Shown here: piece after piece, positions 1 to 6,251 of the stretch
How the letters are laid out: each line of letters begins with the position of its first letter
How positions within the stretch are numbered: position 1 is the stretch's first letter
Assembly (NCBI GenBank): GCA_919902665.1
Contig: CAKKRK010000031.1
Coordinates: 1-41,486, forward strand
DNA from: Nitrospiraceae bacterium
Lineage (GTDB): Bacteria > Nitrospirota > Nitrospiria > Nitrospirales > Nitrospiraceae
Direction: 5' to 3'
DNA length: 41,486 nt
Made by a program: the position numbers and the translations under genes
The notes under the pieces: generated by a model
What the model saw: only the letters and a program-made list of their open reading frames with translations
What the model was told of the DNA's origin: nothing
Database searches by the model: none

Positions 1-37
1 TTCGTGAAGCCAGGCTACCACTTATCACACTGTCTGA

Positions 38-247
38 ATTTCCGGAGCCCCCTCTAACTCCATAGACCTAGACCAGCGCATAAAGGACTTCGCCGAAGCT
101 GCGAGGCGAGCACGTGCCAGTGGCAAAGGCATACCTGTGTGGAGAGAGGATTGCTCAATCGGTGCTCAGTTCTCGTTGGATTTTAATGAGCGGTTAGATA
201 TGAACGAAGGCGTTACAGCTCCCGAATCGCGCCTTGGAGGACGGTAA
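38..247 (+). pseudogene. possible remnant of a small coding region (no usable start)
   Basis: An open frame follows a TGA at 35-37 and runs to a TAA at 245-247. The translation is protein-like in its middle (DQRIKDFAEAARRARASGKG, then IPVWREDCSIGAQF), with charged helices and ordinary codon use. There is no ATG with a ribosome site; the only in-frame GTG (137) would leave under 40 residues. The 3' end overlaps the convergent gene ending at 213. It may be the tail of a gene that lost its 5' part, or chance. I do not recognise the family. Confidence 0.25.
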
Positions 248-2805: not shown

Positions 2806-3357
2806 ATGAGGCTAGTCGTACTCGTAGCGGTTTTGATCTTGACTAGTGCGACCGTCTCTGCAGCGGTGGAATCGTTGAGTGGTAATTCGAAGAAAACGAT
2901 ACCTCCGTCGATACCGCTGGCCGGGGAGGAGCCATATGAGGCGTTGAAGCGTGGAGATTTCAGGGTCGCTGCGGGACTCTTTTACCCCTTGGCACAACGT
3001 GGGGATGCCCGGGCTCAGTATAACCTAGGGCTGCTGTATGGCAGTGGTCTGGGTGTGGATCAAGACTACCAGGCGGCACTGAAATGGCATCGCATGGCGG
3101 CGGTCCAAGGCCATGCAGGAGGCCAAAACGAACTTGCACAGATGTATGCGAAGGGACAGGGCGTTCAACCAAATCAGGTTCTGGCCTATGTGTGGTTCAG
3201 CACGGCAATTGCGTCGTCGAGTAGCGGGTCGAAAACTGAAATCACGAAGGACCGAGATCGTACGGCCTCACGCATGACGCCGGAGCAAATCACAAAAGCG
3301 CAGCAGATGGCTGAACAGTGCCAAGAGTCGAAATTCAAGAAATGTGGTGAGAAGTAA
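2806..3357 (+). CDS. secreted Sel1-repeat protein
   Basis: A protein of 183 aa from the ATG at 2806, preceded by AAAGGTGG; a longer frame from 2746 has no comparable site and would bury the signal peptide. The N-terminus is a clear Sec signal (MRLVVLVAVLILTSATVSAA). The mature part carries about two Sel1-like repeats, alpha-helical repeats related to TPR, with the signatures AQYNLGLLYGSGLGV and ELAQMYAKGQGV followed by AYVWFSTA. The tail is lysine-rich with two cysteines (CQESKFKKC). Sel1 proteins act as periplasmic or envelope protein-interaction scaffolds; the partner is unknown. It is monocistronic, between a tRNA and a convergent Fic gene. Confidence 0.8.
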   Translation: MRLVVLVAVLILTSATVSAAVESLSGNSKKTIPPSIPLAGEEPYEALKRGDFRVAAGLFYPLAQRGDARAQYNLGLLYGSGLGVDQDYQAALKWHRMAAVQGHAGGQNELAQMYAKGQGVQPNQVLAYVWFSTAIASSSSGSKTEITKDRDRTASRMTPEQITKAQQMAEQCQESKFKKCGEK

Positions 3358-3398
3358 GACTCACGACAGAAGCTGAAGTCGCGCATCTCCGTTGTTTG

Positions 3399-4739
3399 TT
3401 ATGTACTTACCACACTCCGAAGTTTGTCCATCATTTTGTCGGCTTGGACAAACACAAATTCCTTTCCTCTCTTTTCTTTCTTGAGGAAGCCTTTCTCTGC
3501 AAGGTCAAGCAAGTCATTTCTTGCTGTTTGGTATACCACGCCATGCGCATTCCGGTGAGCATCGAATGTGTAGGTCTCATGCGGATGCTGAATTGCGTGA
3601 GAGAGCAGACTTCTTTGGCGGAGGTTTAAGCCCGGATACTTTCTCAATGCGGCGCTCAGGCCTGTCATTTCTTTCTGTTTTCTTTGAATATAGCTCTGTG
3701 CCTCTTCGCACGCCTGCTTAGTTGCCTTCAAATTATAAAAGAGAAAATAGGTCAAATCGTTATCGTCTGTCTCTGTATGAAGATAAGCACGGACATACTG
3801 CCCAGGCGCTCTCTGCATATACCGCGATATGGCTAGGTACTCAAATAGTAAATAGTCACGAGAGAGGAGATACCAATACATCAATGCCCGTGCAGTCCGA
3901 CCATTTCCATCATGGAACGGGTGGTCATAGGCCAGCCAAAAATGAAGCATCGCTGCCTTTATCACGGGGTGAATCCACTTGCTGTCCCCATCCTTGTTGG
4001 CAAACTCGCAGAAGGCGTCCATGCGCTCTGGTAACGTACTAAAATCCGGTGGAATATGAACGGTCTCTCCTTGGTATTCGACGATGATGTTGTTACTGGT
4101 CCTGAGTCGCCCTGAGTCATCCGGATGATCCAACGTCGCTTCTGTAATTCTTTGGTGGATTTCGGTGATGAAATATTTTGTCAGATTCGTTTTTCGTTTC
4201 TCTCTGATGAACTGCATCGTTTCCCAATTATTGAGGATCATTTGCTCGCTTCGATCTTTGGGCTTTCGGCCTGTGCGGAGCAAGTCCTTCGCCTTCTGAG
4301 TGGTTGTGGCGGCTCCTTCGAGTTGACTCGATGCAATGGCCTCATCCATCAGTGATCTGATGACGAACTGTTCTCTCCCCGGTAACGCGCTGGAGGTATC
4401 AGTGACAAAATTTCCCCCAGCCCAGACATCAACGTCGTGCAGATCTTTGTGAAGACCATCAGGTATCCAATACAAAAATGGCGTACCGCTCTTGTCTGTG
4501 AATGGAGCTTTTTTAAAATTGGCGTGGCGACCAAGTTTGACCAGCGCCCACGCCTCTTCATGCGAAAACTCTTTGGGTATTGGAGCATATCTAAAGCGAT
4601 GCCAATGGCTATAGTCTTCGTTTGCTTTTTGAATGACATCTTGAAGCTCCGAGTCAACCCGCATCTGCAGGAGTTTTTGGAGCGTTTCTGGTTTCTTGAG
4701 GATCGTTGAGAGTTGGGGAGGGTCGACAATAATCGCCAT
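3399..4739 (-). CDS. Fic-domain protein adenylyltransferase with inhibitory motif and C-terminal winged helix
   Basis: A protein of 446 aa. The Fic active-site motif is HPFHDGNGRTAR (273-284), matching HPFx[D/E]GNGRxxR; His273 is the expected catalytic base for transferring AMP to a Ser, Thr or Tyr hydroxyl. An N-terminal inhibitory helix motif, SSQLEG (137-142), fits the class II consensus [S/T]xxxE[G/N], in which the Glu blocks productive ATP binding. The last 70 or so residues look like a winged helix-turn-helix (VVYQTARNDLLDLAEKGFL), so the protein may bind DNA. A Shine-Dalgarno AAAGG precedes the ATG. Upstream lies a consensus promoter set in inverted repeats (separate entries). The gene is noticeably more AT-rich than its neighbours, which suggests horizontal acquisition. 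The target protein is unknown. No separate antitoxin-like gene is adjacent. Confidence 0.92.
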   Translation of the reverse strand: MAIIVDPPQLSTILKKPETLQKLLQMRVDSELQDVIQKANEDYSHWHRFRYAPIPKEFSHEEAWALVKLGRHANFKKAPFTDKSGTPFLYWIPDGLHKDLHDVDVWAGGNFVTDTSSALPGREQFVIRSLMDEAIASSQLEGAATTTQKAKDLLRTGRKPKDRSEQMILNNWETMQFIREKRKTNLTKYFITEIHQRITEATLDHPDDSGRLRTSNNIIVEYQGETVHIPPDFSTLPERMDAFCEFANKDGDSKWIHPVIKAAMLHFWLAYDHPFHDGNGRTARALMYWYLLSRDYLLFEYLAISRYMQRAPGQYVRAYLHTETDDNDLTYFLFYNLKATKQACEEAQSYIQRKQKEMTGLSAALRKYPGLNLRQRSLLSHAIQHPHETYTFDAHRNAHGVVYQTARNDLLDLAEKGFLKKEKRGKEFVFVQADKMMDKLRSVVST

Positions 4740-4757
4740 ACGCGCCTTTATACTAAA

Positions 4758-4826
4758 AGTACTATTTTAGTATAAATTAGTACTTGCGAGATGTCAACAC
4801 GTACTAATTTTGTAAATATTAGTACG
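4758..4826. promoter_or_regulatory. paired inverted repeats, probable operator of the Fic gene
   Basis: Two inverted repeats share the same half-site. The first is AGTACTA (4758-4764) with TAGTACT (4778-4784), and it encloses the -10 box. The second is CGTACTAA (4800-4807) with TTAGTACG (4819-4826), just upstream of the -35 box. Their centres are about 42 bases apart, close to four helical turns. An overlapping TACTAAAA/TTTTAGTA pair (4751-4758, 4765-4772) is also present. Binding would cover the promoter, so repression is the simplest reading. The winged helix of the Fic protein is a candidate binder. Confidence 0.6.
4769..4797 (-). promoter_or_regulatory. sigma70 promoter of the Fic gene
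   Basis: On the minus strand TTGACA (4797-4792) and TATACT (4774-4769) are separated by exactly 17 bases. The -10 box lies 30-35 bases from the Fic ATG. This is the closest match to the vegetative consensus I found in the window. Confidence 0.8.
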
Positions 4827-4931
4827 ATTTAGATTTACGTTTAACAACTCGCTTATTTACAATGCATTATGAGCAAACTGTTTTAGAAGTTTGGGGAGGT
4901 GTTAGTAGATAACGTGATGTTGCGGTTAACT

Positions 4932-6251
4932 TTAGGACGCGCGCAAATTTCTGATCTCTGCCAGTGTTGTCTCGATTTCTTTAGGCGAGTTGATAAGACA
5001 TGGTGCGAGCCGGACGTACTTCGTTGCGTAGGGCGTGACGCTGCCGACAATGCCACGGTGACGAAGCCGTTCCACGACGGCACGAGGAGCCATGCCGGCG
5101 ACCTCGAAACACACAATCCCAGCGGACAGCTCCTGCGACATCGGGGTATGGAGCGTGACATGAGGCATGGCTACCAAGCTCTGCTTCAGCTGCTGGTTCA
5201 ACTCATAGATGCGTTGTGTCACACGAGCTTTCCCAACGGTTTGGTGAAATGCGAAGGCTTCATCCAGTGCCCAGCGATGTTCGAATGAATGGAACCCGCC
5301 TGGGGACATGTGAACCGATTGTGGAAGATGCTTCGACGACTTGTTCTCCATCCAGAGGTCATAGGCCTGTCCACTAAAGGTTGGAATCGTCGGCTGAGCA
5401 ATGGGCCAGGCCTGCGGGTGGCCCCAGACCAGCCCAGTCCCGCGTGGACCGAACATCCATTTATGGGTTCCTGCCACCAAGAAGTCGCAGCCCAGCTCGC
5501 TCACACGGAAATCTTCAACTCCCAAGGCATGGACCCCATCCACGCAGAAGATGATCCGATCCTGTTCATCACGTGAACGATTGATGGCCTGGATCGCGAG
5601 TGCCATGTCATGGATCGGCAGTTTCAGTCCCGTGCTGGAATGGACCCAGGTGACCGCTACGATGCGTGTGGCAGGCGAGATGCCCTTGCGCAGGGACTCG
5701 ACGATCTCGTCGCGCGAGACGGTCTTCAGGGCGCGATAGAGGGGTATTTGACGGACTGTGGCGCCTGTCCGTTCTGCGCGAAGGCATAAGGCGGTTTCTG
5801 TCGAATAATGGTCGTGGGTCGTCGTCAGGATTTCTTGCTCGGTCCGAAGTTGTAAGCCGCCATACAGCAGGCCCAACCCCATGGTCGTGCTGTCGGTCAA
5901 GGCGATGTCTGTGGGATTGCCTCCCAGATACTCAGCCGCTGCCTGGAGCACCTTCGCGTCCTGTTTCTCCTCATGTTCAAACCAATAGCCGATCGGGTCC
6001 GTGTCCAAGCCAGCTCGGTGCCGTTCGATGGCTTCGCGTACTGGTGTGGGATGAGAAGCGAGGAAGAACGCAGCCAAGTGGATAAGCTGTGGAGAGAGGG
6101 GAAACTGTGCTCGCAGGTCTTCCCAACTCTTCAAGCGACTTGATGACGTTGCCTGTTCAGCAAAAGCGCGAGGTTGGGTACCAGCCAGTACCGCTGCGCT
6201 CAAGGTCAAGCCGGTCCGGACTAGAAAGCCTCGACGTCCGATGTCGCTCAT
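4932..6251 (-). CDS. Tat-exported class V (PLP) aminotransferase, isopenicillin-N-epimerase-like
   Basis: A protein of 439 aa, with the start supported by GAGGAGG upstream. The N-terminus (GRRGFLVRTGLTLSAAVLAG) has twin arginines followed by a hydrophobic stretch and an AFA cleavage-like site, so it is a likely Tat substrate that folds with its cofactor before export. The core is a fold-type I class V aminotransferase: FCVDGVHALG holds the Asp contacting the pyridine nitrogen, and VAGTHKWMFGPRG holds the Lys that binds PLP. Overall length and motif spacing resemble isopenicillin N epimerase/cysteine-desulfurase-like enzymes, but the substrate cannot be read from sequence. It is 130 bases downstream of gcvP on the same strand, with a hairpin between, so probably a separate transcript. 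Confidence 0.85.
   Translation of the reverse strand: MSDIGRRGFLVRTGLTLSAAVLAGTQPRAFAEQATSSSRLKSWEDLRAQFPLSPQLIHLAAFFLASHPTPVREAIERHRAGLDTDPIGYWFEHEEKQDAKVLQAAAEYLGGNPTDIALTDSTTMGLGLLYGGLQLRTEQEILTTTHDHYSTETALCLRAERTGATVRQIPLYRALKTVSRDEIVESLRKGISPATRIVAVTWVHSSTGLKLPIHDMALAIQAINRSRDEQDRIIFCVDGVHALGVEDFRVSELGCDFLVAGTHKWMFGPRGTGLVWGHPQAWPIAQPTIPTFSGQAYDLWMENKSSKHLPQSVHMSPGGFHSFEHRWALDEAFAFHQTVGKARVTQRIYELNQQLKQSLVAMPHVTLHTPMSQELSAGIVCFEVAGMAPRAVVERLRHRGIVGSVTPYATKYVRLAPCLINSPKEIETTLAEIRNLRAS

Follow-up and report, generated by a model that had tools for sequence, protein, structure and literature searches.

A winged-helix Fic gene of Nitrospiraceae with a conserved half-site array, its probable operator, at its own promoter

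The fic gene and its promoter array

In a 41,486-bp stretch of a Nitrospiraceae genome, here called the window (contig CAKKRK010000031.1 of assembly GCA_919902665.1), a gene for a Fic protein with a C-terminal winged helix is preceded by a strong predicted promoter, which is flanked and overlapped by inverted repeats that we regard as a candidate operator (Table 1). The promoter, TTGACA-N17-TATACT, has 11 of the 12 consensus sigma-70 bases and is the best among the local matches. Palindromes 1 and 2 are exact copies of GTACTA-N13-TAGTAC, each 25 bp long and 42 bp apart from centre to centre; an exact-pattern search of the entire 3.56-Mb genome returned these two copies only, and 100 shuffles of the window gave none. 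The earlier note had described a consensus promoter with two GTACTA inverted repeats about 42 bases apart, and the exact coordinates bear this out, although that description was conservative, as the array is larger, with six TACTA half-sites and an additional overlapping repeat. Read along the coding strand, the array begins with a forward and a reverse half-site; the -35 follows, then two forward half-sites, the second of them on the -10, and finally two reverse ones. The extra half-sites lie 9-10 bp off the main pair; the inner one coincides with the -10 hexamer, and the outer one is kept in Nitrospiraceae orthologs.

The protein itself matches Pfam PF02661 (Fic) with 80.2 bits against a cut-off of 24, and HPFHDGNGRTAR agrees with the HxFx(D/E)GNGRxxR motif of Fic (Fido) AMPylases. 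N-terminal to it is a class II inhibitory motif of the (S/T)xxxE(G/N) form, SSQLEG, in which S137, Q139, E141, and G142 are invariant in 34 sequences. An AlphaFold2 model of the whole protein, with a mean predicted local distance difference test score (pLDDT) of 86, consists of an N-terminal extension, a Fic core, a long helix, and a C-terminal winged helix. When modelled separately (pLDDT 88), the C-terminal 81 residues are similar to winged helices of the MarR/ArsR type and to AspA, several of these structures being DNA-bound, with a Z score of 9.4 and a root-mean-square deviation (rmsd) of 3.2 over 81 residues for the MepR-DNA complex and a Foldseek E value of 3.2e-4 for AspA-DNA. Both elements that had been assigned to the protein from the letters alone, its own inhibitory motif (S137-S-Q-L-E-G142) and a winged-helix tail, are present. 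From its family we infer AMPylation, toxicity, and a defence role for the window Fic.

Table 1. Features of the fic locus and of the Fic protein (nucleotide positions are those of the window)
Feature	Position	Strand	Remarks
fic gene	3399-4739	-	446 aa
fic start ATG	4739	-	
-35 hexamer TTGACA	4797-4792	-	sits between the two palindromes
-10 hexamer TATACT	4774-4769	-	inside palindrome 2
Palindrome 1	4801-4825		half-sites TACTA 4820-4824 and 4802-4806; upstream of -35
Palindrome 2	4759-4783		half-sites 4778-4782 and 4760-4764; over part of the spacer, the -10, and the probable transcription start
Overlapping inverted repeat TTTATACTAAAA/TTTTAGTATAAA	4747-4776		extra half-sites 4768-4772 and 4751-4755; overlaps palindrome 2
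N-terminal extension	residues about 1-115		
Class II inhibitory motif SSQLEG	residues 137-142		
Fic motif HPFHDGNGRTAR	residues 273-284		
Long helix	residues 330-367		AlphaFold2 model
Winged helix	residues 373-432		AlphaFold2 model
Predicted recognition helix	residues 403-415; codons 3495-3533	-	first residue Tyr403

Conservation of the array and its covariation with residue 403

Orthologs were gathered from Nitrospirota genomes, plasmids, phages, and viral contigs, and those in which the recognition helix starts with Y-[QE]-T-[AS]-R form a Tyr-type set of 34 distinct proteins with 42-92% identity. Within 300 bp upstream of these genes, TACTA-N13-TAGTA is present in at least one copy in 32 of the 34, and in two copies in most; versions in which base 2 of the half-site is C, G, or T occur in none of the 34, and the TACTA form itself appears in only 7 of 3400 dinucleotide shuffles (0.2%). 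The earlier note had proposed searching homologous fic loci for the repeats, and regarded a lack of conservation as refuting its reading; the repeats are conserved at the ortholog promoters. In an alignment of 12 orthologs from Nitrospiraceae, identity averages 97% over the half-site columns, with 20 of 25 invariant, compared with 69% for the rest of the last 80 bp and 63% farther upstream, and in close orthologs the -35 and -10 fall within the array. The spacing is regular, with forward and reverse half-sites 18 bp apart (60 pairs) and same-strand half-sites 10-11 bp (46 pairs) and 42 bp (30 pairs) apart, the latter distances being approximately one and four turns of DNA.

The sites are also restricted to fic. 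We searched 395 Nitrospirota genomes for the exact pattern TACTAAT-N9-ATTAGTA, which occurs in 14 of the 26 genomes carrying a close fic relative, and all 20 of the sites in these fic-bearing genomes are at fic, within about 270 bp of its start. The remaining 369 genomes contain six sites, in five genomes, which is background, with the reversed control pattern also giving six. Fisher's exact test gives 5e-15, a value that is descriptive only because the pattern was partly learned from the same sequences and the genomes are related. The reading as part of a global regulator's regulon was rejected, the exact sites in fic-bearing genomes being confined to fic.

The best evidence that Fic itself may read the sites is their covariation with residue 403, the predicted first residue of the recognition helix, where Tyr is accompanied by TACTA, Arg by TGCTA, and Asn by TCCTA. 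The protein with Arg (L034, 'HGTARQTAR') has nine TGCTAA and no TACTAA upstream, and both exact TGCTA-N13-TAGCA sites in its 2.8-Mb genome are located at its fic; over a whole class this pattern has background matches in 104 of 229 genomes, and is informative for G361 only. The protein with Asn (L053, 'HGVSNQTAR') has two TCCTAA half-sites and no TACTAA, in the same 11- and 18-bp layout. In the tree the Arg and Asn changes are on separate branches, with L053 sister to a Tyr/TACTAA protein, L091 (support 99/96). In the regulators FadR and NagR, an arginine that opens the recognition helix contacts guanine (PMC4333415), which is the change seen in L034. We found no relatives of L034 in a search of viral contigs, and a sequence search with its N-terminus gave no meaningful match.

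A Lys-type recognition helix (HAVSKQTAR) is found in L054/L094/L165, on IMGVR_UViG_2802429555_000002; the half-site of L054 is not readable because the contig starts at the gene, without upstream sequence.

More distant homologs often have palindromes of their own with different sequences. A significant palindrome (p<=0.05) is present in 78% of the clade's upstream regions compared with 12.5% of control regions, and strong palindromes of other sequence are found at L051 (z 14), L045 and L112 (AACTCA), L055 and L059 (CATTTCA), L061, L113, L097, and L043. Homologs with similar recognition helices tend to share half-sites, as in L045/L112/L167, L055/L194, and L191/L192. A clear palindrome of the fic type was not seen at the Vibrio plasmid homologs L044, L046, and L047 or at L048 of Ilyobacter. 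Comparing the Klebsiella homolog with E. coli genomes by blastn gave no match. The distant homologs L191, L192, and L193, located on viral contigs, have lineage-specific palindromes upstream (TTGCTCTTA..AGAGCAA in two of them, and TTTGCTG..CAGCAAA), which could extend the recognition code.

In one ortholog (L033, in contig C6 of G063) the Fic motif is HPFMDGNGPIAR instead of HPFxDGNGRTAR, so that the catalytic motif is altered, and its promoter palindrome is among the strongest, with 20-bp arms around TACTA-N13-TAGTA. This Fic may be retained purely as a regulator, or else the change may be a sequencing error.

Autorepression and its alternatives

Taken together, we think it very probable that this class II Fic AMPylase with a C-terminal winged helix acts as repressor of its own promoter, and that the repeats are the fic operator. 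The basis of this reading is the site array, its overlap with the promoter, its conservation, its restriction to fic, the covariation with residue 403, and the predicted winged helix; we infer that Fic binds with the dimer stoichiometry given below, that it represses and does not activate, and that it is an active and toxic AMPylase. In the model that we favor, the C-terminal winged helix would bring Fic dimers onto TACTA half-sites paired at a distance of 18 bp, with Tyr403, as first residue of the recognition helix, reading base 2 of the half-site. Dimers would fill palindrome 1, just upstream of the -35, and palindrome 2, over the spacer and the -10, and bound Fic would block RNA polymerase from the near-consensus promoter. 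In this way an AMPylase that may be toxic would set its own level, and the inhibitory helix SSQLEG would separately restrain its activity.

Alternatively, a regulator encoded elsewhere could bind the repeats, with the winged helix serving enzyme activity only, in the way that the C-terminal domain of E. coli Sofic is reported to do. We consider this unlikely, as the sites follow residue 403 of Fic itself, a co-change that would need chance, as sites in fic-bearing genomes are at fic only, and as no neighbor gene goes with fic outside the Nitrospira relatives that have it at the same locus. Fic could also be an activator, or could switch from activation at low occupancy to repression at high occupancy, and the position of palindrome 1 just upstream of the -35 is a frequent one for activators; however, the -10 beneath palindrome 2 belongs to a near-consensus promoter, which has no need of an activator, and the characterized analogue, CccR of Yersinia pseudotuberculosis, represses, which makes this role very unlikely.

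Least probable of all, and rejected on geometry, is that the inverted repeats are RNA hairpins controlling translation or attenuation in the 5' leader. One palindrome does adjoin the ribosome-binding site in several orthologs, and paired changes would likewise preserve a stem, but palindrome 1 would not be transcribed from the fic promoter because it is located upstream of the -35. Moreover, the direct repetition of half-sites at 10-11 bp and of palindromes at 42 bp matches the helical spacing of DNA, and all half-sites of an operator change jointly and in step with a protein residue.

Several points weigh against autorepression by Fic. Two Tyr-type orthologs, L088 and L089, are without an exact N13 palindrome, though TACTA half-sites are present in both, and only 46% of the distant homologs have a palindrome with p<=0.05 (controls, 12.5%). 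The Arg and Asn contrasts are based on one protein each, and the recognition code is therefore a strong lead rather than proof. A trans-acting regulator that has fic as its single target would be a formal, if unlikely, alternative.

A broader proposal, which we regard as doubtful, is that of a multi-phylum family in which a single polypeptide would act as an enzyme, inhibit itself, and repress its own gene, its protein-DNA code being readable and differing from lineage to lineage. DNA binding would be coupled to AMPylase activity, such that a change induced by phage or stress (in ATP state, self-AMPylation, or target binding) would free the promoter and the enzyme together.

Relation to known systems and genomic setting

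The closest precedent is CccR (YPK_0951, PDB 7XUX), a class II Fic protein that represses its own promoter, where its C-terminal helix-turn-helix (HTH) binds AGATAATCAT-N26-ATGATAATCT (PMC9755527). Both proteins have a Fic domain and a C-terminal HTH or winged helix, both have inverted repeats across their own -35/-10, and the fold alignment spans the complete CccR chain (Z 23.2, rmsd 6.0, 323 residues, 17% identity). However, CccR is a 380-aa protein that lacks the N-terminal extension of the window Fic, and its single operator (10-bp repeats with a 26-bp spacer) differs from the several TACTA-N13-TAGTA units here; the window array departs from the CccR layout, with half-site starts 18 bp apart and extra half-sites 10-11 bp away. 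CccR is also an effector secreted by the type VI secretion system, whereas the window Fic has no known secretion link, secretion genes not having been sought.

Because of this precedent (PMC9755527), the principle of autorepression is already known and is not new in kind. Of the autoregulated AMPylase that the earlier note suggested, the autorepression is strongly supported by ortholog conservation, fic-only sites, and residue-403 covariation; its proposal that a single chain would combine toxin, antitoxin, and repressor agrees with the anatomy, with an inhibitory motif and no small downstream antitoxin gene, but is not novel given CccR (PMC9755527). The release of the promoter upon a change of ligand or modification state, which the note put forward as a possibility, would be a speculative addition, as would toxicity of the protein. 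What differs from CccR is the subfamily, which has an N-terminal extension, the helically phased arrays of half-site pairs, and their conservation with evolving specificity. Searches of the open full-text literature, which leave aside subscription papers and preprints, gave no further example of such an autoregulated Fic protein.

SoFic and EcSofic, which are single-gene anti-phage defences, share the class II inhibitory motif, the Fic motif, and a C-terminal winged-helix-like domain with the window Fic; the PADLOC SoFic profile matches it (4.5e-51, residues 117-433), and SoFic structures are its top Foldseek matches. It differs in scoring below the cut-offs of both NCBIfam NF046030 (76.4 bits versus 550) and PF21248 (SoFic-like_C; 15.5 bits versus 27), and in having an extra N-terminal region of about 70-80 residues. 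Furthermore, a gene like AS1 of EcSofic (PMC12249575) would not fit between fic and the adjacent Sel1 gene. Autorepression of Sofic is not described in PMC12249575. The predicted winged helix of the window Fic, of MarR type, shares its fold with GntR- and MarR-type repressors such as FadR, NagR, and MepR, and the helix-start Arg that reads guanine in FadR and NagR (PMC4333415) is as proposed for L034, but in the window Fic this domain forms the tail of an enzyme, without the ligand domain of those families.

Winged-helix Fic proteins are usually described as enzymes or toxins with a mostly unexplained tail, and among the literature found only CccR has a proven operator. Operators dedicated to fic throughout a clade would identify the tail as a specific reader of DNA and residue 403 as its recognition position, and predict an easily testable switch of specificity. 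The role of the C-terminal domain in SoFic-like defence proteins is now directly testable, as is how a one-gene toxic enzyme stays low without an antitoxin gene.

No neighbor gene is common to all of the orthologs, and neighbors accompany fic solely among Nitrospira relatives that share its locus. In the window the Sel1 gene is convergent with fic and ends 42 bp away from it, too short a gap to hold a downstream antitoxin gene like AS1. At the Nitrospira loci around an aminotransferase gene (positions 3357-4932 of the window, and L141-L152), fic is at the same place in 4 of 12 and absent from the others, and in L151 the aminotransferase gene is followed by a Sel1-repeat gene without fic; the presence of fic beside the aminotransferase gene is thus a presence/absence polymorphism in Nitrospira. 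The same aminotransferase gene adjoins fic in L003 (labelled Planctomycetaceae) and L006 (Obscuribacterales), whose Fic proteins are 92% and 79% identical, respectively, to that of the window, and these contigs look like misbinned Nitrospira.
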